Source of the DNA: a virus | Virus record (IMG/VR): IMGVR_UViG_3300032288_002231 | Coordinates: 1 to 20,024 of that record | Length of the DNA stretch: 20,024 bases | Reading direction: 5' to 3' (one strand) | Shown here: positions 6,428 through 19,539 of the stretch, one piece after another | Layout of the letters: every line of letters begins with the position of its first letter | How positions within the stretch are numbered: position 1 is the first letter of the stretch | The notes under the pieces: generated by a model | What the model saw: the letters and a program-made list of their open reading frames with translations, nothing else | What the model was told of the DNA's origin: nothing | Database searches by the model: none | Made by a program: the position numbers and the translations under genes

Positions 6428-8122
6428 TTAGGAACGCAAAGCCTTAACCAAGGAATCGACCGTCAACTTTCCATCAGCGGGAACTACCGAAATCGGCTTC
6501 TCGCCACGGAAGATCACCCTTCGACGGTCTTCAAGGAGATTCTTCCAGTTTGCCTTTTTGGAATCCGCCAGAATCCCAAGGAATGCTTCGGTGATCGCAT
6601 ACTTGGGAAGGGCGGCTTCCTCACACGCCTTGCGGGCCTCATCAATTGATTTTTCCCGACGATCCCGGGCGCGGTAAGCGTCCACTTCCTCAAGGATTCG
6701 GGCCAGCGCCGGGGAAGGTTTCCGCCTCAAAGACTCCTCAGTCTTTTCGGGTTCCTTCTCATCTTCGGCTTCTTCAGTTTCCTCATCATCGGACATATCG
6801 GCTTCTTCAATGTCCGGGGCGGATTCAGCGTCATCCGCTTCCATCTCGCCGCCTTGGCCCATCAGGGCAAGCAGCTTGGCCACCTTTTCTTCGGCTCCCA
6901 GCGAATCGTCCATCACGATGTCGCCAACCTGATCCTTGATGGAATCCTCATAGCCGCCTTCTTCCCCATCCTCTTTCTGGACCGGGAACAATTCTGGTTC
7001 TTCCATGCCATCAGCCTCCTTGGTTGGATCACCCTCAGAAATATCCTGAACATTCCTCAAGAAATCCAATAGAGCTTGCGTATTCTTCTCAACGGCTTGC
7101 ATGGCTCCCGGCCCGGGGAATCTGTCAGCAATTGCCGTGTACAAATCGTTAAGCTTGGATTTTGTTTTTGGACCGGCCTTATCAAAAAGCGGGTACATTG
7201 ATTTGTACAAATCGTTAAACATCTGAGGACCGTCTTTTAACTTTTTCAGATTGTTCTGAAAAATCAGAACTTTCCTGAAAAGTTCGCTAACCTCAGAGCT
7301 TGGAACTTTCCCCGCCTCCACCCGCGGCTTTGGCTTGGGGATGACTTTGTCTTCTTCTTTCATGGATTCTTTCTCTGGCTTGTAACCTTTGCCGCGTCGA
7401 TCAATTTGATATCTAATCTCGCTCAATTCATCCTGTAGTTTTTTTTGAGCCGAAACATCTGGATCGCTTCCGTGTTTTGAAAGCAATTCAGAATATGAAA
7501 GATTGCCCCAGCCCTTTGCAATAATCTTGTCATTCAATTGGGAATCTTTGGATTTCAACTTATTCTCAGCATTCCTCAACTCAGACAAAGACATTTGCCT
7601 TGGCTGCTTGGCCTCCACAATGGATTTTGCCTTCATAACACACTCCATCAGCCCCGCGGTGGTTGCTGGTTCTGCCACCAGATCAACCGAAGTAACCTCA
7701 ACGATTTCCTCAATTTCTTCCACGCCTTCCCGGTTCAGTTTCGTCCGGGCTTGGGCATTGTGGCTGAGGCCGACAGCGGACGGGTCATTAGCCGCCCACC
7801 ATGCGAAGCCTTCCGCGAGGGGATGCTTGGGGTTGTAGGACAGGTCAGCGTAAATCCCGTCTGCTTCCAACCGGGGATTCACCAGCCGACCGAATCGATC
7901 CTCATACGAACGGGGCTCATCCCCCTTGGGATGGTCAATGTTGACCATTGCCCCATCGTATTTCTCAAGGGCTTTACGCATCACCTCAACGGGGTATTTG
8001 CGTCCATTCTTGGATTCAACCCCAAGGACTTTCACGCCCTTGATCATGGGAGCATCCCCCGCCCCGGTCGGGAGGGGGTTGCGTTCCTCATGGATGGAAA
8101 CAATCTGGCTCATCACTTCCAT
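6428..8122 (-). CDS. Prohead protease fused to a long acidic scaffold-like region
   Basis: The protein has 564 residues; the start is set by GGAGG 9 bases before ATG 8122. Residues about 25-165 form a prohead-protease domain with NIDHP (His64), GLSHNAQ (Ser120) and VTSVDLVAEPA (Asp147), spaced as in herpes-assemblin-like phage proteases. Residues ~168-370 are a Lys/Ser-rich helical segment with clearly more AT-rich DNA than its neighbours. Residues ~370-465 are extremely acidic, and the last ~100 are helical. Such extensions usually act as internal scaffold and are cleaved during head maturation. The start codon lies inside the end of the upstream sigma-like gene (35-base overlap). The middle segment may be a later insertion. 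Domain call for the N-terminus is firm; the scaffold role is inferred. Confidence 0.8.
   Translation of the reverse strand: MEVMSQIVSIHEERNPLPTGAGDAPMIKGVKVLGVESKNGRKYPVEVMRKALEKYDGAMVNIDHPKGDEPRSYEDRFGRLVNPRLEADGIYADLSYNPKHPLAEGFAWWAANDPSAVGLSHNAQARTKLNREGVEEIEEIVEVTSVDLVAEPATTAGLMECVMKAKSIVEAKQPRQMSLSELRNAENKLKSKDSQLNDKIIAKGWGNLSYSELLSKHGSDPDVSAQKKLQDELSEIRYQIDRRGKGYKPEKESMKEEDKVIPKPKPRVEAGKVPSSEVSELFRKVLIFQNNLKKLKDGPQMFNDLYKSMYPLFDKAGPKTKSKLNDLYTAIADRFPGPGAMQAVEKNTQALLDFLRNVQDISEGDPTKEADGMEEPELFPVQKEDGEEGGYEDSIKDQVGDIVMDDSLGAEEKVAKLLALMGQGGEMEADDAESAPDIEEADMSDDEETEEAEDEKEPEKTEESLRRKPSPALARILEEVDAYRARDRREKSIDEARKACEEAALPKYAITEAFLGILADSKKANWKNLLEDRRRVIFRGEKPISVVPADGKLTVDSLVKALRS
7138..7218. 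repeat. Pair of 15-bp direct repeats inside the protease/scaffold gene
   Basis: TGTACAAATCGTTAA occurs exactly at 7138-7152 and again at 7204-7218. The spacing is 66 bases, that is 22 codons in frame. The copies encode FNDLYKS and LNDLYTA within the AT-rich middle segment, so they mark an internal 22-residue repeat in the protein. Confidence 0.8.
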
Positions 8123-8621
8123 AAATGACCGCCTCCTTGATCAAATCCTGAATTTCTGCCAAAACAGCCCGTGGTTCCACAAAAATCATGCCCAACCGAG
8201 CGCAAGCGGTTTCAGGGGTTTCCCCCTCATGCCAAAGCATCTGGACGAATGCCGCGGCTGCCGGGGGCAGACTGGCAACGGCGTCCCGTAAATCCACGCT
8301 GCAATCGTTGATGGCCTCCAACCCGGCTGGCAAGCCAACCTTTGTCTCAATGACGGCCTTCTTGCGTCCCACCGCTTCCCGATACATGGAACCCCAAATC
8401 CATGTGCGGGAATAAGCGCCCAGCGTGATCCCCCGGGTCGGATCGTAATTTTTCAGCCCCTTGAGCAATCCCAACCATCCAGCCTGACACAAATCCTCGT
8501 ATGTGGTCTTGCGCCTGTATCGGCCAATGAACCACCTAGCCATGTGGTGAACCAATGGCTGGTATTTCAGGATTTCAGACTCATCCATCGGGGTGGTTCC
8601 AATGGTGTTCCGGGCTATCAC
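8088..8621 (-). CDS. RNA polymerase sigma-70-like factor (third in the window)
   Basis: The protein has 177 residues and a GTG start at 8621 that overlaps the portal stop (GTGA); a GGGGG tract lies 4 bases upstream. Residues ~18-90 look like sigma region 2: LVHHMARWF, YEDLCQAGWLGLLKGLKNYD, then the G-x-x-x-x-AYSRTWIWGSMYREA segment typical of region 2.3/2.4. A short linker leads to a degenerate region 4 (about 112-165, with ACARLGM-type helices). It would bind host core RNA polymerase and redirect it to phage promoters. Unlike the other two factors it lies inside the head-morphogenesis operon, and it is more distant from them in sequence. A region-2-only anti-host function is possible because region 4 is weak. 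Confidence 0.75.
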   Translation of the reverse strand: MIARNTIGTTPMDESEILKYQPLVHHMARWFIGRYRRKTTYEDLCQAGWLGLLKGLKNYDPTRGITLGAYSRTWIWGSMYREAVGRKKAVIETKVGLPAGLEAINDCSVDLRDAVASLPPAAAAFVQMLWHEGETPETACARLGMIFVEPRAVLAEIQDLIKEAVIYGSDEPDCFHP

Positions 8622-10858
8622 AGTTCCCCCCGGCGGGCCATACTCAACGCGATTGCCACGGCTTGCTGTTGGGGTTTGCCCTCATCCATGAGAAGCTTGA
8701 TTTTGTTGCTGATCTTGTCATCCATCTCTGATTCAGGAACCGCCCCGTCATAAGTTCCAGTCGGTCCTACGATCTCAATCCCTTCCTTTTTGTCTGCCGC
8801 ATCAATCTGCTTAACCAGTTTGGCAGACCACGATTTGCCAGCATCACCGCCCCACAGGAGCCAAGCAATATACCCGGCTGAATCTTCTCCCCATCCTTCC
8901 CCCTGCTTGTCCACCTCGTGCCGGGCGAAATAACTGTGCATCCGTTTGGCGGTTTCGGGGGTGACTTTCTGCCCATTGGACAGCGTGCGAGCCCGGGCAA
9001 CGCCAACCGCGGTTCCACCCCTGCCATGCTTCTTGCGAAGTTCCAATCCCCGGGCGGCAGCTTTGCGGACACCTTCCGGCGGGCTGAAATCAATGTGGGA
9101 ATACTTTTCGGCTTCTGAAATATTCCCGCTAGCAGCCGGATTGGGTTCAATAGGATCAAATATTTGGCCAATCAATTCCTTTGAAACGGCAGGGAACGCC
9201 GCAGACGCAATCGCTTGTGCCGTTTCCAATGGCAAAGCACCTTGGGCAACCTGTGTGGCCAAATCAACCAAGGATGTTACTTGAGCGCCATTTAACGCGG
9301 TGTCTTGAACTTGATCAGGCCCATCGGCCTGTTTTGGCAAATCTGTTGATTGATCGCCCATTGCTGGCGGCTCAATCCCGGGATTGGGATTGGACAGCAT
9401 CGGATTCTTTGCGGATTCTTCTCGGGACTTGGCAATGTTGCGCTGTTCTTCCTCGTAATTCTTGCCGCTGTCCGCGGTGATCGTCTGGGGTGACCACAAG
9501 CCCATGTCGTAATACTGCTTGGCCACCGATGCTTCTTCGTTGCGGTTCCGGCTGACCAGCGACGGCCCCTTGGCCCGAATGGTAACTTGTTCAAACACAT
9601 CCCGGGGGAGCATTCCCATATTCACGGCGTGGGCGATCTGGTTCCAAATCAACGAACGCTCAGGGCGTGTCCGGCGCTCGCCAATGGCTTGGCCCAGCAT
9701 CCGTTGCATACGCTCAAATGTCTTGACCGCGGGAGCCTCGGCAACCAAAGCGGAAGCATAGTTATTGTTTGAGGCGTCAGCGCTCATCATGGTTTCGGTG
9801 ATGCCAAACCGGGAAGCAATCGCCCGCAAATTGGCGTTGAGCGTTTCCACCAGATCGCCGGAACCGACATTCAGGCTCGGGAACTCGTATCCCACATTCC
9901 CGGTAGTTGTCAGGATCGATCCGTATCCCATGTGGCTAATATTTGTGCTTCTAGCCTGAACCGGATCAGTCACCGTGAAATCCGTTGCCGTCCGGGCAAG
10001 TTCAGCAATCGCATCAGGCGGGCTGTCATTCACCTTGCGAATCACGGCAATCTTTGACCGGGCCTTGGCCAATGCAATCATTGATTGCAACACATCCTCG
10101 GCAGCCCGCAGATTGGATTCAACGGCGTAAATCGTCGGGAGCCCTCGCTTGCTGTTGGATTCGCTGTTGATCTTCAGATGCAAAATCTGATCGGCTGGAA
10201 CCAGCGTTGGCGTCAGATCAAACCAAGGGCGTTCAATCACCCAATACCCGGTGATGTCGTGAATATCGTCGTCATCGCATTTGATGCCGAATGAATTGTT
10301 GGGAGTGGTGTCATCAGCCGGGGGGCGGATCAATTCAGGCTCGATAAACCGAATGCGAAGCAATCCATCCGAACCGGCAAAGAACCGCAAGAACGCTTCC
10401 CCGTCAGCGTGCAACCGATAGATGATTTCTGATTCAATTTCAGGCATCCGGTTGTGTTCAACCAACAGGTCAACCAAATCCTGAGTTTTCTTGATCAAGT
10501 CCAGATTGGCCCCGTCATATCGGGCTTGGACGGTGTAAGTGAACCCTGTCCCGACCACATAGTTTCTGTGGGCGTTGATCGCGCTGATGGCAAATTCATT
10601 GTTCCGGGCAATCTGCCGGGAACGATCCCGAATGATCTTGAGTTGCCACCAGTTGATGTACAAGGGCAGCAATTCGCCCGCCATCCGGTTATCCCGGCGG
10701 GTCATGTATTGTTGGGGAACACCGTCAAGGAACCCGTATGGGCCAACCTCGGCAAACAAATCCCGGGTGTCCATGTACGGGAAATAGGGCATGGACGCGT
10801 ATAGGTCCATGCTCTCGCTGATTTTCTTTGGCCCGTCAGCCGGTTTTGAGTCGCTCAT
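8618..10858 (-). CDS. Portal protein with fused C-terminal accessory domain
   Basis: The protein has 746 residues. The first ~480 read as a lambda-type portal: NRMAGELLPLYINWWQLKII near residue 60, RNNEFAISAINAHRNYVVG, and ADQILHLKINSESNSKRGLP near 225-245, followed by VESNLRAAEDVLQSMIALA. It forms the dodecameric channel through which the terminase packages DNA. The last ~160 residues are an added region. Residues 588-685 carry FSPPEGVRKAAARGLELRKK, RMHSYFARHEVDK and AGYIAWLLWGGDAGKSW. Residues ~712-746 carry a KIKLLMDEGKPQQQAVAIAL helix. I recognise both as recurring modules in phage structural or DNA-associated proteins with no assigned activity. The ATG lies in the arm of a hairpin (see 10853-10889). 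Confidence 0.85.
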   Translation of the reverse strand: MSDSKPADGPKKISESMDLYASMPYFPYMDTRDLFAEVGPYGFLDGVPQQYMTRRDNRMAGELLPLYINWWQLKIIRDRSRQIARNNEFAISAINAHRNYVVGTGFTYTVQARYDGANLDLIKKTQDLVDLLVEHNRMPEIESEIIYRLHADGEAFLRFFAGSDGLLRIRFIEPELIRPPADDTTPNNSFGIKCDDDDIHDITGYWVIERPWFDLTPTLVPADQILHLKINSESNSKRGLPTIYAVESNLRAAEDVLQSMIALAKARSKIAVIRKVNDSPPDAIAELARTATDFTVTDPVQARSTNISHMGYGSILTTTGNVGYEFPSLNVGSGDLVETLNANLRAIASRFGITETMMSADASNNNYASALVAEAPAVKTFERMQRMLGQAIGERRTRPERSLIWNQIAHAVNMGMLPRDVFEQVTIRAKGPSLVSRNRNEEASVAKQYYDMGLWSPQTITADSGKNYEEEQRNIAKSREESAKNPMLSNPNPGIEPPAMGDQSTDLPKQADGPDQVQDTALNGAQVTSLVDLATQVAQGALPLETAQAIASAAFPAVSKELIGQIFDPIEPNPAASGNISEAEKYSHIDFSPPEGVRKAAARGLELRKKHGRGGTAVGVARARTLSNGQKVTPETAKRMHSYFARHEVDKQGEGWGEDSAGYIAWLLWGGDAGKSWSAKLVKQIDAADKKEGIEIVGPTGTYDGAVPESEMDDKISNKIKLLMDEGKPQQQAVAIALSMARRGEL

Positions 10859-10889
10859 TTATACAATCCCCCTCAATATGTAAATGAGC
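10853..10889 (-). promoter_or_regulatory. Inverted repeat enclosing the portal ribosome-binding site and start codon
   Basis: GCTCATTTA (10853-10861) and TAAATGAGC (10881-10889) are perfect 9-base inverted arms with a 19-base loop. In the mRNA the GAGGGGG Shine-Dalgarno lies in the loop and the portal ATG (10858-10856) lies in the 3' arm. The element fills nearly the whole gap between terminase and portal. There is no T-tract, so it is not an intrinsic terminator. Translational control is inferred. Confidence 0.6.
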
Positions 10890-10891
10890 AA

Positions 10892-12382
10892 TCAAACCCG
10901 CCCCATAATCCGTTCAGTAAACCCATTCTGCCCTTGGATCAAGCAAGCCAGATTGAACGCGTCCGCAAGGTCTGGCGAGCTTTTCAACCGGCGTTTGGTC
11001 ATCGCTTTGGGTTCCACCATGCGCCGTTGCAAGCTGTCCAGCGTGAACACGGGTTGTTTCAATTCTAACATCAACTGATTGCGAATATCTTCCGGCAGCA
11101 TGGCAATTGATATTTGTTCGGCATCAGCAAGGTCGGATGATGAAAACCACAGTTCAGACCGGAAGTTGGGGAAATCGCCCTCGTAACGGGATCGCAAGGC
11201 TGAATTGATTTCCACGAAATTAAACCGATCGTTGGTTCGGCCTTTCATGTCAACCAGACCGGCCCCAAGCCCGGCGGCATCAATCAGAACGGGAATCTGT
11301 CGGGCGTCCTGTCCGGGTTGGGCGTATTTGATGCAAAGTTCCTTCAGACGGTCAGCAACCATTGTCAGGTTCCAACCGCGGTGGGATTCCATGTGGATGA
11401 TGTTTTGGCCCTTGCGAACGCAGACCGCCGTGCGATCATCACCGAATCGGGCCGGATCGCATCCGATTTGAACCAGCCATGCCGGGTTCATCTGGATTGG
11501 CTGTTGTAAGGCTTGCAATGCCCGTTCAGACCATACGGACGCAACGGAACGGCTGGGCCATCTGCCCAAAACCTGAACCTCAAACAACGGAGATTCCGGC
11601 TCATACCATTGACCGGCCCAATCAAACGCATTGTTGGGCATTTCCTCCCCGGGCTCAATCAACCGGCATTCTTCCCGGACTCGGGCGTCTACGGTTGGTC
11701 GGCTGATTGCCCCGGGAACCTTTTCCTGTCCGGTTGTCACATTAGGGTGTTGAAGGGCAGACATTTCCAACACGGTGTGCTGCCCGGAAGATTCTGCCAG
11801 ATAAGCGGGGCATGAAATGTCATAGGGGTTGTAGATGGCCAAGAAATAATGCCCGGGGCGGTTCGGTTCCACCATCGTTTTTGCCCGATCCCAGAATACA
11901 GCATCTATGCCCGCGGCTTCGTCAAAAACGATCATCTGGTGATCCATGTGACGGCCTTGGAATGAATCGCCCTTGGACGCTGTCAGGCCGTCAATCCAAT
12001 GATCTGGTGAAGATTCCAGCCGGGTTGCCTTGGGCAGCCAATTGGGATCATCAGCTTTGATCCGGCGCAATTCCCGGAACAGCAAATCCTTGACCGATTT
12101 CAAGGTCGGCGCGGTGGTCAAACAGATTCCCGGATTGAATCGATCATAAAACCACGATGCGATTAAAGCTGAGATAAAGGTCTTTCCAACCGAGTGGGCA
12201 GCCCGAACCAGAACGGAATACGGGGGCGTCACAATCGCCCGGCAGATTTCTTCCTGTTGTGGCGTCAGATACAGCCCTTTTGCCCGGGCGTAATCAATCG
12301 GCGTTTCATGTACGATCTTTTCCTTTTTTGGGATTTGGCTTCTGAGCTTCTTGGCTTGCTTGAGCATTCGTTGCAAGTTCAT
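10892..12382 (-). CDS. Terminase large subunit (packaging ATPase and nuclease)
   Basis: The protein has 496 residues. The ATPase domain has Walker A AAHSVGKT at residues 61-68, an ICLTTAPT segment near 86-93, and Walker B MIVFDEA at 150-156. An F-x-G-RH element (141-145) and the IYNPYD coupling segment (184-188) fall between and after these. The C-terminal nuclease is RNase-H-like: GCDPARFGDD (Asp309), LIDAAGLGAG (Asp367) and SPDLADAFNLA (Asp471/474) supply the metal-binding acids. The motor cuts concatemeric DNA and pumps it through the portal encoded next. The ATG lies 77 bases inside the small terminase gene, a long overlap that implies coupled translation. All expected catalytic residues are present. 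Confidence 0.95.
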   Translation of the reverse strand: MNLQRMLKQAKKLRSQIPKKEKIVHETPIDYARAKGLYLTPQQEEICRAIVTPPYSVLVRAAHSVGKTFISALIASWFYDRFNPGICLTTAPTLKSVKDLLFRELRRIKADDPNWLPKATRLESSPDHWIDGLTASKGDSFQGRHMDHQMIVFDEAAGIDAVFWDRAKTMVEPNRPGHYFLAIYNPYDISCPAYLAESSGQHTVLEMSALQHPNVTTGQEKVPGAISRPTVDARVREECRLIEPGEEMPNNAFDWAGQWYEPESPLFEVQVLGRWPSRSVASVWSERALQALQQPIQMNPAWLVQIGCDPARFGDDRTAVCVRKGQNIIHMESHRGWNLTMVADRLKELCIKYAQPGQDARQIPVLIDAAGLGAGLVDMKGRTNDRFNFVEINSALRSRYEGDFPNFRSELWFSSSDLADAEQISIAMLPEDIRNQLMLELKQPVFTLDSLQRRMVEPKAMTKRRLKSSPDLADAFNLACLIQGQNGFTERIMGRV

Positions 12383-12743
12383 TTCTGATTGCCTTCAGTT
12401 CCTTCCGAAGTTCATCCAAATCCGTTCGCTCGTTAATCTTTGCAAACCATTCCGGGTGACGCCTTTCCAGAACCCATGCGCCAGCTTGCCAGTTCTGCTT
12501 GGATGCAGCTTCAATCTTTTTCAGATTATTCTGGATAAACTCGGCTTGAGCCTTTTTCATCTCAGCCCGCAAACGAATATTAAGCGGGCCTTTGGATTGA
12601 TTGGATTTCCAGTTGTATAGCGTCTTTCTGGATATCCCTGCCACTTGGGCAGCAACTATCCACGGGCAACCAATCCTGATTGCATCGCAGATTGCTTTTA
12701 TATAGTCCTCATTCAACTTGAGCGGTTTAGTCTTTCTTTTCAT
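12306..12743 (-). CDS. Small terminase-like DNA-binding protein
   Basis: The protein has 145 residues. The basic N-terminus (MKRKTKPLKL) is followed by a helix-turn-helix at residues 28-48 (IVAAQVAGISRKTLYNWKSN). Then comes a helical oligomerisation region with the KQNWQAGAWVLERRHPEWF pattern that is common in phage small terminases, and a Lys/Gln-rich tail. Small terminases bind the packaging site and regulate the large subunit, and this one directly precedes and overlaps the large-subunit gene. The start has only a weak GGA Shine-Dalgarno, part of an inverted repeat in the upstream gap. A homologous non-terminase HTH protein is possible, but the gene order makes terminase most likely. Confidence 0.8.
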   Translation of the reverse strand: MKRKTKPLKLNEDYIKAICDAIRIGCPWIVAAQVAGISRKTLYNWKSNQSKGPLNIRLRAEMKKAQAEFIQNNLKKIEAASKQNWQAGAWVLERRHPEWFAKINERTDLDELRKELKAIRNELATNAQASQEAQKPNPKKGKDRT

Positions 12744-12751
12744 GCGTATTA

Positions 12752-12782
12752 TTCCAATTGGTCATTTATATATCCATTGGAA
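12752..12782 (-). promoter_or_regulatory. Inverted repeat before the small terminase gene
   Basis: TTCCAAT (12752-12758) and ATTGGAA (12776-12782) are perfect 7-base inverted arms separated by 17 AT-rich bases. The arm nearest the gene contains the weak GGAA that would serve as Shine-Dalgarno for ATG 12743. It could act as an operator next to the TATAAT box or as an RNA hairpin that hides the ribosome-binding site. Either is inference. Confidence 0.45.
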
Positions 12783-12785
12783 AAT

Positions 12786-12791
12786 ATTATA
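12786..12791 (-). promoter_or_regulatory. Possible -10 box (TATAAT) at the early/late junction
   Basis: A perfect TATAAT sits a few bases after the metallophosphoesterase stop codon, in the 52-base AT-rich gap before the terminase operon. A start site about 7 bases downstream would leave a leader of about 35 bases. No TTGACA-like -35 is found at 16-18 bases, so the box may be used by a phage sigma factor, or be coincidental. Confidence 0.4.
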
Positions 12792-12795
12792 CCCA

Positions 12796-13665
12796 TCACG
12801 GTTCCACAACCCGGCTCAAGTATTCCATATTGCCTTTTGTTCGGCTCAACTCGTGTTCGGTGAACCAGCCGCCTAGCGGACGGAATGACCGGCCCTGTTC
12901 AGCGTGCCAGCCGTCGTATTCATCCTTGTACGGCCCGCATCGGATGAAATGTTGCTGGGACCGCTGGAGCTTCCCGTATCGGCTTAAATGGGCAATGACA
13001 TTCTGATCGGTGTTTTTCCAATGCACATGGCCCGACAGGTAATAGTGGGCAAAATATTGCGAGCGTGTCCGGGAATGGTCTATCAGGCCCCGACTCACAG
13101 GGCCACCCCCCCCGTAGCCATGTGAAAAATGTAGCGTACGGGATACAGATCGTTTCTGGTTGCGTTGCTGGTGGAACACCAGATTCACGAATCCCCAATA
13201 CTTCCCCAGTTGCGTTTCGCATTTCGGATTGGCTGATTTGATGGCATAAACCAATCGATCAAGCAGATTGATTTCATGGCGTTTGGTGATGGATGTTTCA
13301 TGGTTGCCGAGGCTGATCAATGCGATATTTTCAGCCCAAGGCTTGAGCCAATCGGCGGCTTGTTTCACCACCTCATCCAGATAATTCCCGACTAGCAATT
13401 CCTCCCTCAGTTCCGACTTGCTGGAACGCGGATCGTATTTGCCACCCATAACATCAAAGAAGTCGCCATAGATGAGGACGGGAGCGCCTTCAGCCTTGGC
13501 CTTGTCCAGATGGCTGGCAAGCAATGCCCGGTCGCATTTCTTGGAATCCCAATGGCAATCAGCCATGTGAAGGATTCGGCGCTTTTGGATCGGGTTGCCC
13601 ACATCCACCACCAGACGATGGACATGAGGTTCAATGTCTTGAATTGTCCACCATCCGGGCATCAT
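12796..13665 (-). CDS. Calcineurin-like metallophosphoesterase
   Basis: The protein has about 289 residues. I place the start at ATG 13665, which overlaps the previous stop as TGATG behind a GAGGA site; a TTG three bases earlier would add one residue, and ATG 13662 is also possible. Counting from the TTG, the five metal-site motifs are all present: MADCHWD (34-41), YGDFFD (67-72), LGNHE (120-124), SHG (182-184) and SGHVHW (212-217). They place two metals for phosphate ester hydrolysis. The tail (~240-290) is aromatic and lacks a transmembrane segment. In a DNA-metabolism block next to RusA it may act on DNA ends like SbcD/Mre11, or on nucleotides or RNA; the sequence does not decide. No SbcC-like partner is present here. 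Confidence 0.85.
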   Translation of the reverse strand: MMPGWWTIQDIEPHVHRLVVDVGNPIQKRRILHMADCHWDSKKCDRALLASHLDKAKAEGAPVLIYGDFFDVMGGKYDPRSSKSELREELLVGNYLDEVVKQAADWLKPWAENIALISLGNHETSITKRHEINLLDRLVYAIKSANPKCETQLGKYWGFVNLVFHQQRNQKRSVSRTLHFSHGYGGGGPVSRGLIDHSRTRSQYFAHYYLSGHVHWKNTDQNVIAHLSRYGKLQRSQQHFIRCGPYKDEYDGWHAEQGRSFRPLGGWFTEHELSRTKGNMEYLSRVVEP

Positions 13666-13862
13666 CAATCCTCATCAGGATCGGGATCATCTTCCAAATC
13701 GCAATGCTCGCCCGATTCAATGATGGATAAACAGATGTTGGAAAGAATGTCAGCGGCGCGGATGGCGTCATCATCATGCCCGGAATTGACGATATGCGCC
13801 ATCCGGTTCATGCACAGGTCAAGGTTGGCTTTCAGTTCAAACCCTGAAAAATGGATTCCCAT
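13665..13862 (-). CDS. Small acidic protein, unknown function
   Basis: The protein has 65 residues, with AGGGG 6 bases before the ATG. The N-terminus is mixed and helical. The second half is strongly acidic and ends in DLEDDPDPDED. No Cys-His cluster, signal peptide or membrane segment is seen. A strongly acidic tail can mimic DNA, but I have no support for an anti-restriction role beyond charge. The gene overlaps the metallophosphoesterase start (TGATG), so the two are probably produced together. Confidence 0.6.
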   Translation of the reverse strand: MGIHFSGFELKANLDLCMNRMAHIVNSGHDDDAIRAADILSNICLSIIESGEHCDLEDDPDPDED

Positions 13863-13865
13863 CGG

Positions 13866-14093
13866 TCACCCCTTGACTTGATCATCACCCAAAGGCTCGA
13901 CATTGATTGCCTTGGCCCCCTCAAGAAGCAGCAAGCGCAATGCCTCAACCGACTCGGAATGAAACAGCACGGCGGCAACCAAAGCCTTTTCAAATTTGCC
14001 CTCAACATAGGCGCAATGGGCTTCGTTGAGCCAATCCCACGATCCGCATTCCGGATGCGGTGGGTATGGTTTTTCAGGGTTGCTTGCTGACAT
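13866..14093 (-). CDS. Small protein, unknown function
   Basis: The protein has 75 residues; its ATG overlaps the preceding TAA as TAATG. The N-terminus is Pro-rich (NPEKPYPPHPECGSW). It is followed by an amphipathic helical region (WLNEAHCAYVEGKFEKALVA, then SVEALRLLLLEGAKAI), with a TPR-like feel in helix pairing, but only one pair can be drawn. No catalytic residues are visible. It lies three bases ahead of the next small gene, so the run from 14773 to 12796 reads as one translationally linked unit. Confidence 0.6.
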   Translation of the reverse strand: MSASNPEKPYPPHPECGSWDWLNEAHCAYVEGKFEKALVAAVLFHSESVEALRLLLLEGAKAINVEPLGDDQVKG

Positions 14094-14773
14094 TAGCTAC
14101 TCCGGGAGCGAGAGCGCCCGGCGGGTGATCTGGGGTTCCTGATCAAGAACCGCCCGGCTGATCTCATCCTACGCCCGATAGATGCCCGGTTGCTGTAATT
14201 CCTCAAGCCGACCGATCCGCCATATCCCCACCAATAGAATCGGCCCTTAGATGGAGCCATGATCATGTCATTCATCACCTTTCGGGGAACGCGGGGATAA
14301 GTGTAACGGCCCCCCGGGTTGTTTCTGGATGGATTGATGACGATCATCGTCAGATCGCCTCGTTCCATCAGGTACTGCCGGACATTCACGGCAGAACTCA
14401 ATCGCCCCGGAACCATTGCCAGATTGACGGCGTCTGTTCTGCCCCCAAGCGGCCTGAAATTGATTCCGGCAATCCAGCTTGATCGGACGGCAAAATCCAG
14501 CCCGTCCGTGTATTGCTGAACCGGAGCAGCCCCGGGAACAGTCCTTCCGGGCCTTGGCGGGACGGCTGACGGCTTGGGCGGCTGGAATGGTTTGACTGTT
14601 GGTGCTTTTGGCTGGAACCCCTGCTTCCCCGGGGCTCCAATCCGCTGCAACCGAGCGCCCAATCTGGCAAGCGCCTGACTTGCAGAAACAAGGATATTAC
14701 CAGCGCCTTGGGCTGCCCCCTTGAAGACAGCTTGGAAGAATTTCAGAAAGCTTCCCGGCGTGGGGGCGGCCAT
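14093..14773 (-). CDS. KTSC-domain-like protein with basic tail
   Basis: The protein has 226 residues. Residues ~1-45 are an amphipathic Ala/Gly-rich helix; ~48-85 are a Lys/Pro-rich linker. From ~92 there are two halves that match the KTSC family (Pfam KTSC, about 60 residues, function unknown, often in phages): VRSSWIAGINFRPLG (~95-109), and later GRYTYPRVPRKVMNDMIMAPS then KGRFYWW. They are separated by an insertion of about 45 residues not found in a plain KTSC domain. The C-terminus is Arg/Ser-rich (RRMRSAGRF ... RSRSRSS), suited to binding nucleic acid. It has no strong Shine-Dalgarno, and starts two bases after the previous stop. The domain call is moderate; the function is unknown. 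Confidence 0.55.
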   Translation of the reverse strand: MAAPTPGSFLKFFQAVFKGAAQGAGNILVSASQALARLGARLQRIGAPGKQGFQPKAPTVKPFQPPKPSAVPPRPGRTVPGAAPVQQYTDGLDFAVRSSWIAGINFRPLGGRTDAVNLAMVPGRLSSAVNVRQYLMERGDLTMIVINPSRNNPGGRYTYPRVPRKVMNDMIMAPSKGRFYWWGYGGSVGLRNYSNRASIGRRMRSAGRFLIRNPRSPAGRSRSRSS

Positions 14774-14775
14774 TG

Positions 14776-15090
14776 TTACAGGGCTTGATAGGTCAGGTGA
14801 CCACCGACAGCCACGGCGGCAGACAGGTTGATAATCAATGCTTGCCCGGAAGCAGTCTCAAACAGGCCAGCAAAACCGCTGGGGGCAAGACCGGCTCCGG
14901 ATGGGGCGGCACCGCCGTTTGTGGTCAATGGCATGGCCCCGGTGATGTCGGTGGAACCTGATTTGAATTTGACCGACACATCACCCGCGGCAATCACGGT
15001 ATAGGACACCACTCGGATTTTTCGTCCGGGTTGGGCGGCCACAAGCGTTGTGTCACCGGAAGCCGATGTGGAAATGGTTGCAAATGGCAT
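14776..15090 (-). CDS. Small beta-rich phage protein (structural-like)
   Basis: The protein has 104 residues and GAGGGGG before the ATG. The pattern MPFATISTSASGDTTLVAAQ, then GRKIRVVSYTVIAAGDVSVK, then SGSTDITGAMPLTTNGG and a hydrophobic LSAAVAVGGHLTYQAL end is a compact beta sandwich. It recurs as a small phage protein, usually near structural genes. Here it sits apart from the late module, between RusA and a KTSC-like gene. It has no signal peptide and no catalytic motif. I would call it a decoration- or receptor-related protein only tentatively. Confidence 0.6.
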   Translation of the reverse strand: MPFATISTSASGDTTLVAAQPGRKIRVVSYTVIAAGDVSVKFKSGSTDITGAMPLTTNGGAAPSGAGLAPSGFAGLFETASGQALIINLSAAVAVGGHLTYQAL

Positions 15091-15104
15091 GACGGATTCC
15101 CCCT

Positions 15105-15518
15105 CTACTGGATAAGTGACACGGTCGCATAGGCCATGCTTGCCGCCGAATCATTTAGCCGAACGGTGACTTCCCGGACGAACTGGCATGAATCATCCTC
15201 AAGCCAACCGCGGGCAACCAGATAATCAAGGATTGGCTTGGCGCAGTTGTCAAGATCGCGATTGGATCGCCAACCCTTCCCGGGGGTGATCAATATCAGA
15301 ACCTTGACCGGGCGTCGGGCTTGGTGGATTTTGCATTCCTGAACAAGGATGGCGGCATCTGATTCCGTCAGCCATGCCTGATATTTTTTGGACTTGTGAA
15401 TCCGTCTCCCCACACCGCGCCAAATGTGGTTGGTGCTGGGCGGGATCGGCAAATCAAACTCGGCTATCAGGTGACGCACATCGTCGCCCAATGTCCGGTG
15501 ATCGTCCATCGCTGCCAC
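15105..15518 (-). CDS. rusA: RusA-type Holliday junction resolvase (endodeoxyribonuclease)
   Basis: The frame gives up to 137 residues from GTG 15518; ATG 15509 would give 134. Neither has a good Shine-Dalgarno. The N-terminal IPPSTNHIWR is the RusA beta strand and loop. The catalytic core is RDLDNCAKPILDYL (Asp88, Asp90, Lys94), then GWLEDDSC with Asp108/109 and the VTVRLN strand, matching the Asp70/Asp72/Asp91 metal site of E. coli RusA. It resolves four-way DNA junctions and would clear branches before packaging. It follows the second sigma-like gene after 25 bases. Length is near the family norm of about 120 residues, and all active-site acids are present. Confidence 0.9.
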   Translation of the reverse strand: MAAMDDHRTLGDDVRHLIAEFDLPIPPSTNHIWRGVGRRIHKSKKYQAWLTESDAAILVQECKIHQARRPVKVLILITPGKGWRSNRDLDNCAKPILDYLVARGWLEDDSCQFVREVTVRLNDSAASMAYATVSLIQ

Positions 15519-15543
15519 ACATACCAGATCACAGTTTCATCTC

Positions 15544-16116
15544 TCATACGGCCATTTCCATATTCTTGGCCCTGATATGTTTTCGGATGTAATCCACGGC
15601 GCTCAGCCATGAATTGCCGATGCTGTTCCTTGACCGTTTCATCATACGGCCTATTTCCCTGTGGTTGTATCCCTCCCCCTTAAGCTCAGCGATTTTCACC
15701 CAATCCTTTAACGGCAAAAGATTGATCAATTCCTTGTATTGCTTGCAAGCTTCCAGATTTTGCAGTCTGGCTGCCGGGTCAAAATCATCGCCGCCGATCT
15801 GGCATTCTTCTTCGCCAAGCGGGATATTCCTGCGGATGTCCCGTTTCAGGTTGTAATTCCAGCGCAGGATATTTTTCTTCGTGAATCTGACGGTGTTCAT
15901 GAAATAGGTCGAGAACTGGAACCCGCGCTCCGGCTCAAACGCCATCGCTGAACGGCACAAGATGAACAGCAATTCTGAATACCATTCATCAGAATCCATC
16001 CCGGAAGGGGGCGAGAATTGGCGCATGGCAAACGGGACCAGCGCCAGATTCTTTTCAACCAATCCTTTCTGATATTCGGTCATCTCACCATTTAAGGCAT
16101 GATCTGTCGTATTCAT
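15544..16116 (-). CDS. RNA polymerase sigma-70-like factor (second in the window)
   Basis: The frame gives 190 residues from ATG 16116; ATG 16083 (residue 12) is an alternative because neither has a convincing Shine-Dalgarno. Region 2 (about residues 40-85) contains MDSDEWYSELLFILCRSAMA, then ERGFQFSTYFMNTVRFTKKN, the core-binding and -10 recognition helices. Region 4 (about 130-182) contains a helix-turn-helix, KGEGYNHREIGRMMKRSRNS. The N-terminus and region 2 clearly align with the factor at 18329-18898, so they are paralogues. It should compete for host core polymerase and open a distinct promoter set, presumably middle or late genes. Its start overlaps the previous small gene by 32 bases. 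Confidence 0.8.
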   Translation of the reverse strand: MNTTDHALNGEMTEYQKGLVEKNLALVPFAMRQFSPPSGMDSDEWYSELLFILCRSAMAFEPERGFQFSTYFMNTVRFTKKNILRWNYNLKRDIRRNIPLGEEECQIGGDDFDPAARLQNLEACKQYKELINLLPLKDWVKIAELKGEGYNHREIGRMMKRSRNSIGNSWLSAVDYIRKHIRAKNMEMAV

Positions 16117-16264
16117 GGACGATCTTTTCCAGCTTGTCGTTTTGGCTTGTCAGGGAATCAATATGGGCCAACAAACATAAAATGTCATGTTTCAGGATCG
16201 GATCAATACAACCGTTCAAACGATCCTGTATTTCCCCGCGCCTCGCATCCGTGAACGCTTCCAT
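16085..16264 (-). CDS. Very small protein overlapping the second sigma gene
   Basis: The protein has 59 residues, beginning MEAFTDARRGEIQDRL at ATG 16264 with a strong GGAGGG site about 7 bases upstream. The upstream gene ends at 16268, so the ribosome-binding site lies inside its last codons. The last part, LAHIDSLTSQNDKLEKIVHE, has a heptad-like pattern and could form a short coiled coil. It overlaps the start of the sigma-like gene by 32 bases in another frame. Start signal and spacing support it; no homologue is recognised. A plausible idea is a sigma partner or regulator, but that is only inferred from overlap. Confidence 0.55.
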   Translation of the reverse strand: MEAFTDARRGEIQDRLNGCIDPILKHDILCLLAHIDSLTSQNDKLEKIVHEYDRSCLKW

Positions 16265-16267
16265 GCG

Positions 16268-16516
16268 TCAGCCCTCCTTTTTTTTCATCAACACCCTGAG
16301 CGGCAACTTGGCTTGGCCGATGTACTCAACCGGCGTAAATGGCTTGATCCCGAGCCAATAGTTTAGTTTTCCATCCGGGCCATTCTCGTAATAGGAATAC
16401 TCCCCCGTTTCGGTATCCACGGACACAGTCATCTGGGGAAGCCTTTTCCCATCAGCGTCATAAAGCTCGGCAGTCATCCCGGCCCTGCTCAAATCCTTTG
16501 CGTTGATTTTGGCCAT
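16268..16516 (-). CDS. Small protein, unknown function
   Basis: The protein has 82 residues from ATG 16516, preceded by an AGGGTG purine tract. It is a mixed alpha/beta sequence with VSVDTETGEYSYYENGPDGK, a beta hairpin, then an LGIKPFTPVEYIGQAKLPLR strand and a basic KKKEG end. No catalytic residues, signal peptide or membrane helix is evident. It follows the hairpin at 16535-16566, so it may be transcribed separately from the secreted-protein genes or by read-through. Confidence 0.6.
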   Translation of the reverse strand: MAKINAKDLSRAGMTAELYDADGKRLPQMTVSVDTETGEYSYYENGPDGKLNYWLGIKPFTPVEYIGQAKLPLRVLMKKKEG

Positions 16517-16534
16517 GTGTCACCCTGAAAGAAC

Positions 16535-16566
16535 CAACCCTGCCATCGGTGGGGATGACAGGGTTG
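16535..16566 (-). terminator. Terminator-like hairpin after the secreted-protein genes
   Basis: In the transcript CAACCCTG-U-CAUC pairs with GAUG-G-CAGGGUUG: 13 pairs including one U-G, with a CCCACC loop (16548-16553). The following bases GGUUCUUUC are only moderately U-rich. A smaller perfect hairpin (ACGGAC/GTCCGT, 16588-16602) lies between it and the stop codon of the upstream gene. It is a strong stem, but the weak U tract leaves intrinsic termination uncertain; it could instead protect the 3' end of the mRNA. Confidence 0.55.
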
Positions 16567-16601
16567 AATGCCCGGAACAATCAGATCACGGACATTGTCC
16601 G

Positions 16602-16940
16602 TCAGTATCGGCAGCAAGCGTACCAAAGGCCGTTTGACCCTTGGGCAATCCCGACTTCCCGCGGTTGCCAGCGGTTGCGGTAGCAACAGGACATTTCGGC
16701 TTGCTGGGGCGTTGATCCGCAACCGACGCCCTCATACCCGAGATTGCCCCCGAAATGCCCAATCCTCAAGATTCTGGCCATGTGATTGGCCACGCCTTGA
16801 GCGGATGAAAATTCAGCAGACGGGACGGCTTGCCCTCCATTGTTTCCATTGGAACCTCCCCGTCTGCCGAATAGACCGAACGGACCGGCGAACAGCCCGG
16901 GGGTGAGTACCAGCAAAGCCATCAGCGCAATCCGTTGCAT
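16602..16940 (-). CDS. Secreted small Cys-rich protein of planctomycete type
   Basis: The protein has 112 residues, with AAGGAG 8 bases before the ATG. Residues 1-19 (MQRIALMALLVLTPGLFAG) are a signal peptide, followed by a Gly/Asn/Arg-rich linker. Residues 47-112 form a small domain: AQGVANHMAR, IGHFGGNLGYEGVG, CC (85-86), VGIAQG and WYACC (107-110). I recognise this GH ... YEGVG ... CC ... GxA ... WYA arrangement from many exported planctomycete proteins of unknown function. The even number of Cys residues suggests disulfides after export. A phage copy beside a clamp gene is unexpected and reads as host-derived cargo. No enzymatic role is known. Confidence 0.75.
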   Translation of the reverse strand: MQRIALMALLVLTPGLFAGPFGLFGRRGGSNGNNGGQAVPSAEFSSAQGVANHMARILRIGHFGGNLGYEGVGCGSTPQQAEMSCCYRNRWQPREVGIAQGSNGLWYACCRY

Positions 16941-16952
16941 GGGTGGGGCTCC

Positions 16953-17204
16953 TTACTTGGACTTCTTGCCAGACTCAACGGGAACGATCACGACCTTTTC
17001 ACCGACCTTGCGGTAAATGGTTTCGGTCTTGATAACGGCGGGCTTTTCCTCAACCTTTTTCACCGTTTCCACAGGGGCGCAACGGGCGGCTTTGCGTTCA
17101 GCCCGGCGGGCAAAGAACCCCTTGGGGGCGCAATCCGGGCAATCACCAGCAACCGAAACGGCGCAAACCAAAGCCACGGCGCAAACGGACAAGATGCTTT
17201 TCAA
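16953..17204 (-). CDS. Small secreted protein (signal peptide, Cys motif), TTG start
   Basis: The protein has 83 residues from TTG 17204, chosen because GGAGGG lies 7 bases upstream and the signal peptide (MKSILSVCAVALVCAVSVAG) then starts at residue 1. An upstream ATG at 17249 would put 15 unlikely residues before it. The mature part starts DCPDCAPKG, then a basic FFARRAERKAAR segment, a Cys, and a Lys/Val/Glu-rich tail (AVIKTETIYRKVGEKVVIVP). It resembles the small, basic, Cys-containing exported proteins seen in planctomycetes. It is 12 bases upstream of the second secreted protein. A strict lipobox is absent, so a lipoprotein is unlikely. Confidence 0.7.
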   Translation of the reverse strand: MKSILSVCAVALVCAVSVAGDCPDCAPKGFFARRAERKAARCAPVETVKKVEEKPAVIKTETIYRKVGEKVVIVPVESGKKSK

Positions 17205-17249
17205 CTCAAACCCTCCTTGGTGGGAACCAATCACCGGAACACCCGGCAA

Positions 17250-18332
17250 TCAACTCAACGGCATCAAAAGATACCGATACTTGTCGCAAGTGATCAATGC
17301 CGGTTTTTTGTCCGAGCAGAAATGGAACACGACCTCTTGCGCTGCGTCCAGCGTTTTCATGGCATCAATCAGGTATTTCCAATTCAGGTCAATTTCAAAA
17401 TTCCCGCTTGCCGGCAACACGGGCTTGATCACGGATGTTCCGTATCCCGTCTCCGTCTTGCTTCGGAACAAAACATCCGCGTTGTGGCTTCGCATGGTCA
17501 CACGGTGCATATCATCCGAAACCGCGGTTGCCTTGCGGATTCCGTCCAGCAATTCCCCGGCGGTGGTGGTGAATTCAACCGTGACTTCGGAATCCTTGGG
17601 CAAAACCCCGCGGTAGTCTGGGAATTTACCCTCAATCAAAACCGTCTGCACTAGCACATTGTGAAATCGGATAGTGAACTTTCTGCCAACCACAATCCCG
17701 CAATCGGCGTCCGGGTCAGCATGGATCACCCGCTCGATCAGATTGCTGGCCCGCCCGGGGATGATGGATGTGGATTCCGGGGAATGGATGTCATCCCCAT
17801 AGATCACTAGACGGCGGCCATCCGTTGCCACGCCGTTGAGCTTTTCCTTGGCCAAGCTGATCAGGATTCCCGTCATGGAATAGCGGGAAGTCTCATGGGA
17901 AACCGCGTGGGATGTGGCATGGATGACCGAATCCAAATCCCCGGCCTTGACGGAGAATGATTTGCCGGATTCCTCAACGATAACATCGGGGTATCCGGTC
18001 GGGTCAATCCGGGCCAACTCGTATTGACTCAATCCGGATTGGATGACGATCTTTTCCCCGGATTCCTGAACCGTCACCATGTCCGAAGCCGCCGACAGAA
18101 TGGCGTTCAGCCTGTGGGCATCAATCAGGATTTGGCCATCCCCGGAAACATCAGCCTCAAGCATCTCAATACGGATTCCAAGTTCCAGATCGGTTGCCGC
18201 AATCGTGCATCGTCCGTTGATGCTGGTGATGCTGATACAAGCCAACTCGGGCTTGATTGCCTTGGCCGGGATGGCTTGGGCGCAGAATTTGACAGCGTCC
18301 CGAATCTGGCTTGTCTCAATCGTCAGTTTCAT
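17250..18332 (-). CDS. dnaN: DNA polymerase III beta subunit (sliding clamp)
   Basis: The protein has 360 residues from ATG 18332, the start that overlaps the sigma stop as ATGA and has CAGGGGG before it. An upstream ATG (18365) would add 11 residues inside the sigma gene. It begins MKLTIETSQIRDAVKFCAQA, the first helix of beta-clamp domain 1, and has MTGILISLAKEKLNGVATDG in domain 2. It ends YRYLLMPLS, close to the family C-terminus. Length fits bacterial clamps of about 366 residues. It forms a ring on DNA and tethers polymerases and other factors. A phage-encoded clamp implies its own polymerase or exchange with the host clamp; none is in this window. Coupling to a sigma-like gene invites a T4-like link between replication and transcription. 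Confidence 0.92.
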   Translation of the reverse strand: MKLTIETSQIRDAVKFCAQAIPAKAIKPELACISITSINGRCTIAATDLELGIRIEMLEADVSGDGQILIDAHRLNAILSAASDMVTVQESGEKIVIQSGLSQYELARIDPTGYPDVIVEESGKSFSVKAGDLDSVIHATSHAVSHETSRYSMTGILISLAKEKLNGVATDGRRLVIYGDDIHSPESTSIIPGRASNLIERVIHADPDADCGIVVGRKFTIRFHNVLVQTVLIEGKFPDYRGVLPKDSEVTVEFTTTAGELLDGIRKATAVSDDMHRVTMRSHNADVLFRSKTETGYGTSVIKPVLPASGNFEIDLNWKYLIDAMKTLDAAQEVVFHFCSDKKPALITCDKYRYLLMPLS

Positions 18333-18898
18333 GCTTGCCCCCTGATCTGTTCCCCGGCCCACCACATCCTCGTGTGGGCGTGATCCTTGATTTGCCTCAC
18401 CCGTTCATGGCTGATCCCGTGATCCCTGCCGATGACACGATGGGATTCATCCCAATTGCAACGATCAACCACTTCCAAATCGCGCTGGCTCAATCCAGCC
18501 GCATTGGCAAGGAAATCAATTTCCTCGCGGTTTTCATACTGTACACAGTCATCACGATGATCAGCAACCAAGGCCATCAATGACCGGTCTTTTTTTTCGT
18601 CATCGTAGGACAGGTTCAATGACAATACTTTCTTTTTGTCTGCGACCAAAAAATTGCGCCACAGTTTCCGCAGCTTCCATTTGAGCCCGTTGAACGCATA
18701 GGTGGAAAATGCCCCCTTGCTGGGATCATATGTCACCGCTGCCCGGCACAATCCAAGCGACAATTCAGAATAAATTTCATCTGAGTCCATCGGCGGCATC
18801 CGGTTTTTATTCATGAACGAATAAAGCAACCGTATGTTGTCCCCAACCAGTTTGGATTGCTCATCGGTCAACACAAAATTTTTGATTATCTTGCTCAT
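18329..18898 (-). CDS. RNA polymerase sigma-70-like factor (first in the window)
   Basis: The protein has 189 residues; its ATG overlaps the preceding stop (ATGA), behind ACGGAG. Residues ~37-81 are region 2 (MDSDEIYSELSLGLCRAAVT, then SKGAFSTYAFNGLKWKLRKL). Residues ~136-178 are region 4, with a helix-turn-helix (ESHRVIGRDHGISHERVRQI) that is close to canonical sigma-70 region 4.2. The linker is charged and lacks region 3. By family it binds host core RNA polymerase and directs it to phage promoters. It is translationally coupled to the clamp gene that follows, so the two proteins may be made at a fixed ratio. It is paralogous to 15544-16116. Confidence 0.85.
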   Translation of the reverse strand: MSKIIKNFVLTDEQSKLVGDNIRLLYSFMNKNRMPPMDSDEIYSELSLGLCRAAVTYDPSKGAFSTYAFNGLKWKLRKLWRNFLVADKKKVLSLNLSYDDEKKDRSLMALVADHRDDCVQYENREEIDFLANAAGLSQRDLEVVDRCNWDESHRVIGRDHGISHERVRQIKDHAHTRMWWAGEQIRGQA

Positions 18899-19539
18899 TG
18901 GGCTCCGTTCCCTATGCGTTGCAGCAACCCAGCCAGACGGGCTTGAATGTCCTCGTTTTTGCTGGTCGCCTTCAACCGCATCGTCTCAGCAGCGGCGCGA
19001 AGTTCCTTTTCGTGCCGTTCCATCTGCTCCCGATAGTTTTGGTTTCTGCGGGTGTATTCGTCAAGGCCAATTAACTTCCGCTCCCGCCCGGGCTGTTGTT
19101 TTTCCATGTGGGCATTCACGCCCGTTTCAATCCGCTGGCCGATGTGGCATGAGCAGGTCACGGCTTGGGTCTGGTGCGTTCCCATGCCCGGGTTCCATTT
19201 CCCGTCAACGATCTGCTCAAGATGCGGCAGCCCGCAAACCCAGCCAGCCCCCCGGCAATGTCCACAGGATGGCCAAGGCAACGCCTGACGATCCAATCGA
19301 TCCTTTTCTCGGGCCTGATGATCGGCAAGTCGCAATTCATCCCGGATGGCTTGCAGATGCTCCGTTCCCCAATTCGGGATTTTTTCCCTACGGGCAGTAG
19401 CCAAAACAGCGGCAATCAACTCCCGGTTGGATCGGCCCTCAGCCCGGAACACCTCATTCCACAGGGCATATGTCTGAGCCCAGTTTTCCCCGGAACATCC
19501 GAACAATCGAGCGTGGATATCCCACCAGTTACCTTCCAT
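18895..19539 (-). CDS. Zinc-knuckle protein of the replication block (unknown function)
   Basis: The protein has 214 residues; the start overlaps the end of the replication gene by 11 bases, behind GAGGGGGGAAGG. The first ~80 residues are helical, with WWDIHARLFGCSGENWAQ near the start. Residues 92-102 are CGHCRGAGWVC, a C-x-x-C-x-G-x-G knuckle like those in DnaJ. Cys129, Cys131 and His132 (CSCH) could complete a zinc site. The C-terminal ~65 residues are a charged coiled-coil (EYTRRNQNYREQMERHEKEL). Next to the replication protein it may be a helicase loader or accessory factor, but no ATPase motif is present. The zinc site is supported; the role is not. Confidence 0.65.
   Translation of the reverse strand: MEGNWWDIHARLFGCSGENWAQTYALWNEVFRAEGRSNRELIAAVLATARREKIPNWGTEHLQAIRDELRLADHQAREKDRLDRQALPWPSCGHCRGAGWVCGLPHLEQIVDGKWNPGMGTHQTQAVTCSCHIGQRIETGVNAHMEKQQPGRERKLIGLDEYTRRNQNYREQMERHEKELRAAAETMRLKATSKNEDIQARLAGLLQRIGNGAQ

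Follow-up and report, generated by a model that had tools for sequence, protein, structure and literature searches.

Three sigma-70-type factors on one phage backbone, one of them in the head operon and all probably acquired in layers

The phage genome analyzed here encodes three proteins that, by their sequences, are sigma-70-type factors. They lie in three different modules, and the best reading of the sequence comparisons is that they accumulated in layers and not by triplication. The window, which is the whole stretch of DNA that was analyzed, is a 20,024-base IMG/VR contig with every confident gene on the minus strand. On that strand, two conserved genes are followed by SIG1, a beta-type clamp gene, small genes, SIG2, the RusA gene and more small genes. 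The order continues with a metallophosphoesterase-like exonuclease, the small and large terminase, portal, SIG3, protease/scaffold, decoration-like, capsid-like and tail genes (Table 1); the names decoration and capsid are based mainly on position. The initial annotation had reported three sigma genes of one phage, each in a different module. The coordinates and the assignment to one phage genome were correct, and both Pfam Sigma70_r2 and PHROG 351 matched all three proteins.

Table 1. Features of the window discussed in the text
Feature	Coordinates	Strand	Remarks
SIG1, 189 aa, sigma-70-type	18329..18898	-	Replication module; PHROG 351 and Sigma70_r2/r4 matches
SIG2, 190 aa, member of the SIG1 subfamily	15544..16116	-	Single-gene insert between coiled-coil ORF and rusA
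SIG3, 177 aa, head-operon sigma	8088..8621	-	Sigma70_r2; between portal and protease
Portal protein	8618..10858	-	PHROG 21 (3e-37); adjoins SIG3 upstream
Putative prohead protease/scaffold	6428..8122	-	Weak PHROG 207 "head maturation protease" match (6e-4), position, family conservation; downstream of SIG3
DNA polymerase III beta-type sliding clamp	17250..18365	-	PF00712, PF02767, PF02768; adjoins SIG1
Conserved gene g18895	18895..19539	-	Upstream neighbor of SIG1, slot marker; in near and deep clades
Coiled-coil ORF, 59 aa	16085..16264	-	Overlaps SIG2 start by 32 bases; directly precedes rusA in relatives
RusA-like resolvase	15105..15518	-	PHROG 34 (4e-17); downstream of SIG2
Gap before terminase genes	12744..12795	-	A+T-rich; TATAAATGACC box and sigma-70-like match; candidate late promoter

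The start of SIG1 overlaps the stop of its upstream gene, and its 3′ end overlaps the clamp gene. The GTG start of SIG3 overlaps the portal stop by 4 bases, so SIG3 would be read with the head genes, and it is, judging from this arrangement, translationally coupled to the portal gene; at its 3′ end it shares 35 bases with the protease gene. The codon usage of SIG1, SIG2 and SIG3 fits the phage. No phage RNA polymerase was seen within the window, and no extra sigma gene was present in near-identical contigs that extend it on both sides (L006, ~9 kb; G004, ~7 kb). A fourth sigma candidate with a weak profile match (L005:1757-2392) was rejected because it corresponds to DUF669. Residues 584-709 of the portal protein form a C-terminal domain (PHROG 2859) that is shared with numerous viral contigs showing no other relationship (L034-L061).

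A six-frame search of the entire record with Sigma70_r2 (PF04542) detected exactly three places, each above the curated cut-off: 8373-8567 (E = 1e-16), 18692-18850 (4e-9) and 15862-16062 (5e-7). Against the whole proteins, this profile scored 53 bits for SIG3, 29 bits for SIG1 and 22.8 bits for SIG2, the last falling slightly below the 24-bit cut-off. PHROG 351 ("RNA polymerase sigma factor") matched SIG1 at 4e-19, SIG2 at 4.5e-13 and SIG3 at 5.9e-13. A profile of SIG3 homologues matched region 2 of FliA (6.5e-12), and a SIG1/SIG2 profile matched both region 2 and region 4 of SigA (5e-12). In an alignment of 13 SIG3 proteins, D43, Q46, G48, W49 and Y70 were invariant and W74 was nearly so. D43 and Q46 align with D403 and Q406 of RpoD, which we take to be core polymerase-binding residues, and D43, Q46, Y70 and W74 match what are presumably the core-binding and melting positions of RpoD region 2. 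SIG1 and SIG2 have neither of the two tryptophans of region 2.3, a point against three working factors; ECF factors likewise do without them. When Pfam profiles were run on each protein, region 2 was present in all three, and none proved to be an unrelated helix-turn-helix protein. From these matches, all three are genuine sigma-70-type factors, for which core polymerase binding and transcription initiation are predicted.

Some region 4 features had also been ascribed to each protein. This held for SIG1, which matched Sigma70_r4 at 1e-4 (21.9 bits, slightly below the cut-off), and less firmly for SIG2, where the sequence gave only a weak HTH_38 match. In SIG3 a Pfam search of the whole protein detected no region 4, and only two of its 13 homologues gave a weak match. 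The signal accordingly declines from SIG1 (sequence) through SIG2 (predicted fold and weak helix-turn-helix) to SIG3 (predicted fold only). AlphaFold2 models of SIG2 and SIG3 (mean pLDDT 74 and 69, respectively) consisted of a region-2 bundle, a loose linker and a helical C-terminal domain with the predicted region 4 helices, and aligned end to end with sigma factors; the overall rmsd was large because the two domains are differently placed. Region 2 of the SIG3 model aligned with that of sigma-28 (Z 12, 2.1 Å over 77 residues), and the C-terminal domain of the SIG2 model aligned with region-4 structures at a Z near 9, a moderate value for small helical domains. The helix-turn-helix of the SIG3 model has a turn of seven residues, and that of region 4 usually has about three. 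As modeled, region 4 of SIG3 is degenerate.

Searches with the portal and TerL sequences yielded about 60 contigs of one uncultured phage family. SIG3 lay between portal and protease in all 39 distinct contigs covering the junction; a raw per-locus tally of 48 repeats some contigs, and some of the 39 are near-identical phages. SIG1 followed g18895 in all 13 distinct near-clade contigs (TerL ~70% identity) that carry this gene and in none of six deeper contigs. On the TerL tree this pattern corresponds to one change of state (branch support 96/93), with G050 discounted because it does not cover the SIG1 slot. Among contigs of the family, SIG2 was found in the window only, its absence elsewhere being read from contigs of other species. 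This nested occurrence supports layered addition, although the deeper relatives could instead have lost SIG1. A SIG1 hidden at the deeper-clade slot was rejected, since the slot holds a DUF669-like protein, a small ORF or a zinc-ribbon/HNH-like protein (names assigned by eye, except DUF669). In relatives the small coiled-coil ORF stands directly before rusA, and in the window the same ORF stands before SIG2. A degenerate SIG2 at that slot was likewise rejected: G008 has a small unrelated helix-turn-helix ORF, and the others have the coiled-coil ORF or a short gap. The relative G014 (40,014 bases), which is probably complete because both contig ends fall within the protease region, has exactly two sigma places.

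Several variations were observed around these loci. The beta clamp gene was otherwise found only in G008, where its adjacency to SIG1 is also kept. In two close relatives of the window, a C5 cytosine methyltransferase-like gene is inserted between g18895 and SIG1 (L005:5481-6749 and L006:8566-10005). In G008, a 1288-aa proline/alanine-rich ORF (L084:10414-14280) lies between portal and SIG3, and SIG3 still precedes the protease. In some relatives ParB-like proteins, named by eye, occur downstream of SIG1 at the place of the clamp or small genes of the window (L095:9410-10318, or G018 28672-29580; L097, G021 20113-21054; L085, G008 22334-23362). A prophage search for the host detected no portal or TerL relative in genome contigs, and the plasmid TerL relatives, all at or under 30% identity, gave no host pointer.

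Conservation against five relatives, expressed as identity x coverage, was ~0.25 for SIG1, 0.47 for SIG3, 0.71 for TerL and 0.83 for the capsid-like protein; by this measure few shared proteins of the window are less conserved than SIG1, and SIG3 has a value usual for the head region. The low value of SIG1, together with a SIG2 region 4 that is barely recognizable by sequence, would suit an account in which only one or two of the proteins are working specificity factors, with SIG2 and perhaps SIG1 as rapidly drifting modifiers or decoys that might, for instance, compete with sigma factors of the host or change its regulons. Sigma-like phage proteins may act on host genes instead, and SPO1-like phages provide examples of accessory, non-essential sigma factors that target the host (PMC9429907). 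However, the frames are open, their codon usage is phage-like and SIG1 is kept in every near relative covering its slot. We regard this account as unlikely, though worth keeping in view.

The pattern MDSDE-x-YSEL ... LCR ... FSTY, noted earlier in SIG1 and SIG2, is real: the two proteins share 40% identity over 78 aa of region 2 (E = 2e-13), with a shuffle z of 20.8, and only ~25% over their full length. By sequence they are clearly homologues within one phage sigma subfamily. SIG3, correctly described as the more distant factor in the head operon, gave z values of 3.6 with SIG1 and 0.2 with SIG2 and belongs to a separate lineage. The kinship of SIG1 with SIG2 is not clearly closer than its kinship with the sigma of the clostridial phage PMBT24, as the z values of SIG1 were 33.4 with its G008 orthologue, 20.8 with SIG2 and 18.9 with the PMBT24 sigma; a recent duplication is therefore not demonstrated. 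The N-terminal signature of SIG1 and SIG2 is common to other phage factors, including that of PMBT24. A tree constrained to a SIG1+SIG2 clade was neither rejected nor supported (AU p = 0.17), and in the unconstrained tree SIG2 had no supported position, with an end branch of 2.2 changes per column. The term paralogues thus applies to the pair loosely, as homologues, and not in the sense of a duplication in the window lineage.

These comparisons bear on the proposal of the initial annotation that one sigma gene was duplicated to give a three-step early/middle/late cascade. The resemblance of SIG1 and SIG2 in region 2, their location upstream of the late genes with SIG3 within them, and the precedent of SPO1 for a middle/late sigma series (PMC9429907) are all in keeping with such a cascade. 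Nevertheless, SIG3 stands outside that duplication and has the longer history in the family, the kinship of SIG1 and SIG2 is no closer than that of SIG1 and the clostridial-phage sigma, and the three promoter motif sets sought within the window were not found. An origin of all three by duplication is not supported by these results, and we consider the cascade improbable.

The window is almost without intergenic space and contains fewer sigma-70-like promoter matches than expected by chance (3 vs 12.5), so the proposed early/middle/late order gained no support from it. An unbiased 9-mer scan and a de novo search detected no repeated promoter motif in the window above control, and the TerS upstream regions showed no likeness between sub-clades. 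The gap at 12744-12795 is the only sizeable one before a late gene; it lies within the most A+T-rich 50 bp of the window and holds the TATAAATGACC box and one of the three sigma-70-like matches, which makes it a candidate late promoter. A partial palindrome, CCAATGG...CCAATTGG, is also present in this gap.

In the deeper clade, GGTCATTTA/GTCATTTAT ranked top or near-top among over-represented 9-mers. The 10-mer GGTCATTTAT occurs in SIG3-only relatives in 4-6 exact sense copies per genome and none antisense, where 0.0-0.2 are expected (L187/L188, G046; L181/L182, G028; L185/L186, G035; L191, G039; L183/L184, G032). Most copies lie a few bases before the Shine-Dalgarno sequence, 20-30 bp before the start codon, and some lie inside genes; no second conserved block was detected within 45 bp upstream. 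GGTCATTTAT could be a -10-type box read by SIG3, the only sigma seen in those phages, and as such is a concrete candidate promoter. Its closeness to the start codon implies a very short leader, which counts against a promoter. It could alternatively be a start-associated element, comparable to the repeated motif that precedes genes in a Microbacterium phage with a sigma factor (PMC9224216). The SIG1-bearing clade shows no enrichment of GGTCATTTAT, so a general link between this box and SIG3 cannot be drawn. In the window it occurs six times with at most one mismatch (1.2 expected). The two exact copies lie in coding sequence at the SIG3-protease junction and, on the strand opposite to the genes, in the gap before TerS, and for this reason no conclusion was drawn for the window. 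In G047 (L189-L190), ATTTGAACA/TGTTCAAAT are over-represented on both strands (7 and 5 copies vs 0.2 expected) and are perhaps a repressor operator.

One bolder reading is that the head-operon SIG3 runs late transcription through a single -10-type box, GGTCATTTAT in the deeper relatives, without a -35 element or T4-type helpers, and may even be packaged with its portal neighbors and injected to start the next infection; we rate this as a long shot. A region-2-only late sigma of the T4 gp55 type, assisted by a co-activator and by the sliding clamp whose gene adjoins SIG1, would agree with the absence of region 4 from the SIG3 sequence, the overlap of the clamp gene with SIG1 and the single promoter-like box without an upstream partner in SIG3-only relatives, but it is very improbable, because the clamp gene occurs only in the window lineage and G008, whose SIG3 is entirely without the C-terminal tail, the hhalign comparison with gp55 gave a probability of 2.5% over 46 columns, the predicted C-terminal part of SIG3 keeps region 4 helices, and clamp-coupled late transcription was rejected with the clamp conserved with neither sigma.

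From the homology, predicted folds, positions and nested distribution observed, we infer the activity, timing and targets of the three sigmas, and we consider a layered history, with all three working on host RNA polymerase, to be probable. The three factors would capture the polymerase of the host. SIG3 would be the ancestral sigma of the family, made on the late transcript with the portal and capsid proteins. SIG1 would have been gained later, in one sub-lineage, inside the replication module, and SIG2 last, by a single-gene insertion before rusA from the phage sigma subfamily of SIG1. SIG1, made with the replication genes, would direct polymerase to one or more promoters preceding the terminase-portal operon. 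SIG3, a product of this operon, may recognize mainly the -10 element, given its degenerate region 4, and late transcription would in this way be amplified or passed to later genes. SIG2 might add a small extra gene set or adapt the choice of promoters to a host.

Sigma cascades have been described in a small number of cultured phages, SPO1 and T4 among them. A nested series of one, two and three sigmas on one ~40 kb backbone would make the addition of transcription layers comparable between close relatives, and the fixed position of a sigma gene between portal and protease is both unusual and conserved. Limited phrase searches of openly available papers found no report of a sigma gene beside a portal gene, which is weak evidence. 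One or two sigmas per phage had been called usual, a rule to which the lytic Bacillus phages SPO1 and SP10 are exceptions: each encodes three sigma-type proteins, namely gp28, gp34 and a sporulation-like sigma, two of which control middle and late genes (PMC9429907). Three sigmas per phage therefore has precedent, and what is new is the head-operon sigma and the sense-only GGTCATTTAT motif of the SIG3-only relatives. SPO1 and SP10 resemble the window phage in this number, whereas the similarity of SPO1 gp28 to SIG1 is no greater than that of shuffles, gp28 and gp34 lie among replication genes and SIG3 in the head operon, and the SPO1 genome is 132 kb compared with about 40 kb. T4 gp55 and SIG3 are both small phage sigmas with region 2 and with late promoters as targets, those of SIG3 being putative, but they have no recognizable sequence relation, and the gp55 gene, unlike SIG3, is not coupled to the portal gene. 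gp55 has a conserved hydrophobic-acidic C-terminal clamp-binding epitope (PMC2988020); some SIG3 proteins have a hydrophobic and then acidic tail and others end earlier, so that this feature is not family-wide. The sigma of Enterocloster phage PMBT24 (WDQ45495) belongs to the SIG1/SIG2 subfamily, starts with LT-x-EQ-xx-LV-xx-N and has regions 2 and 4; PMBT24 differs in being a 100 kb phage with its sigma gene between those for DNA polymerase III alpha and an exonuclease. The FliA/WhiG group gave the best profile match to SIG3 region 2 (TIGR02479, 1e-10, besides the FliA match above), and relative to this group SIG3 is 60-70 residues shorter, with a short low-confidence linker at the place of region 3 and a degenerate region 4.
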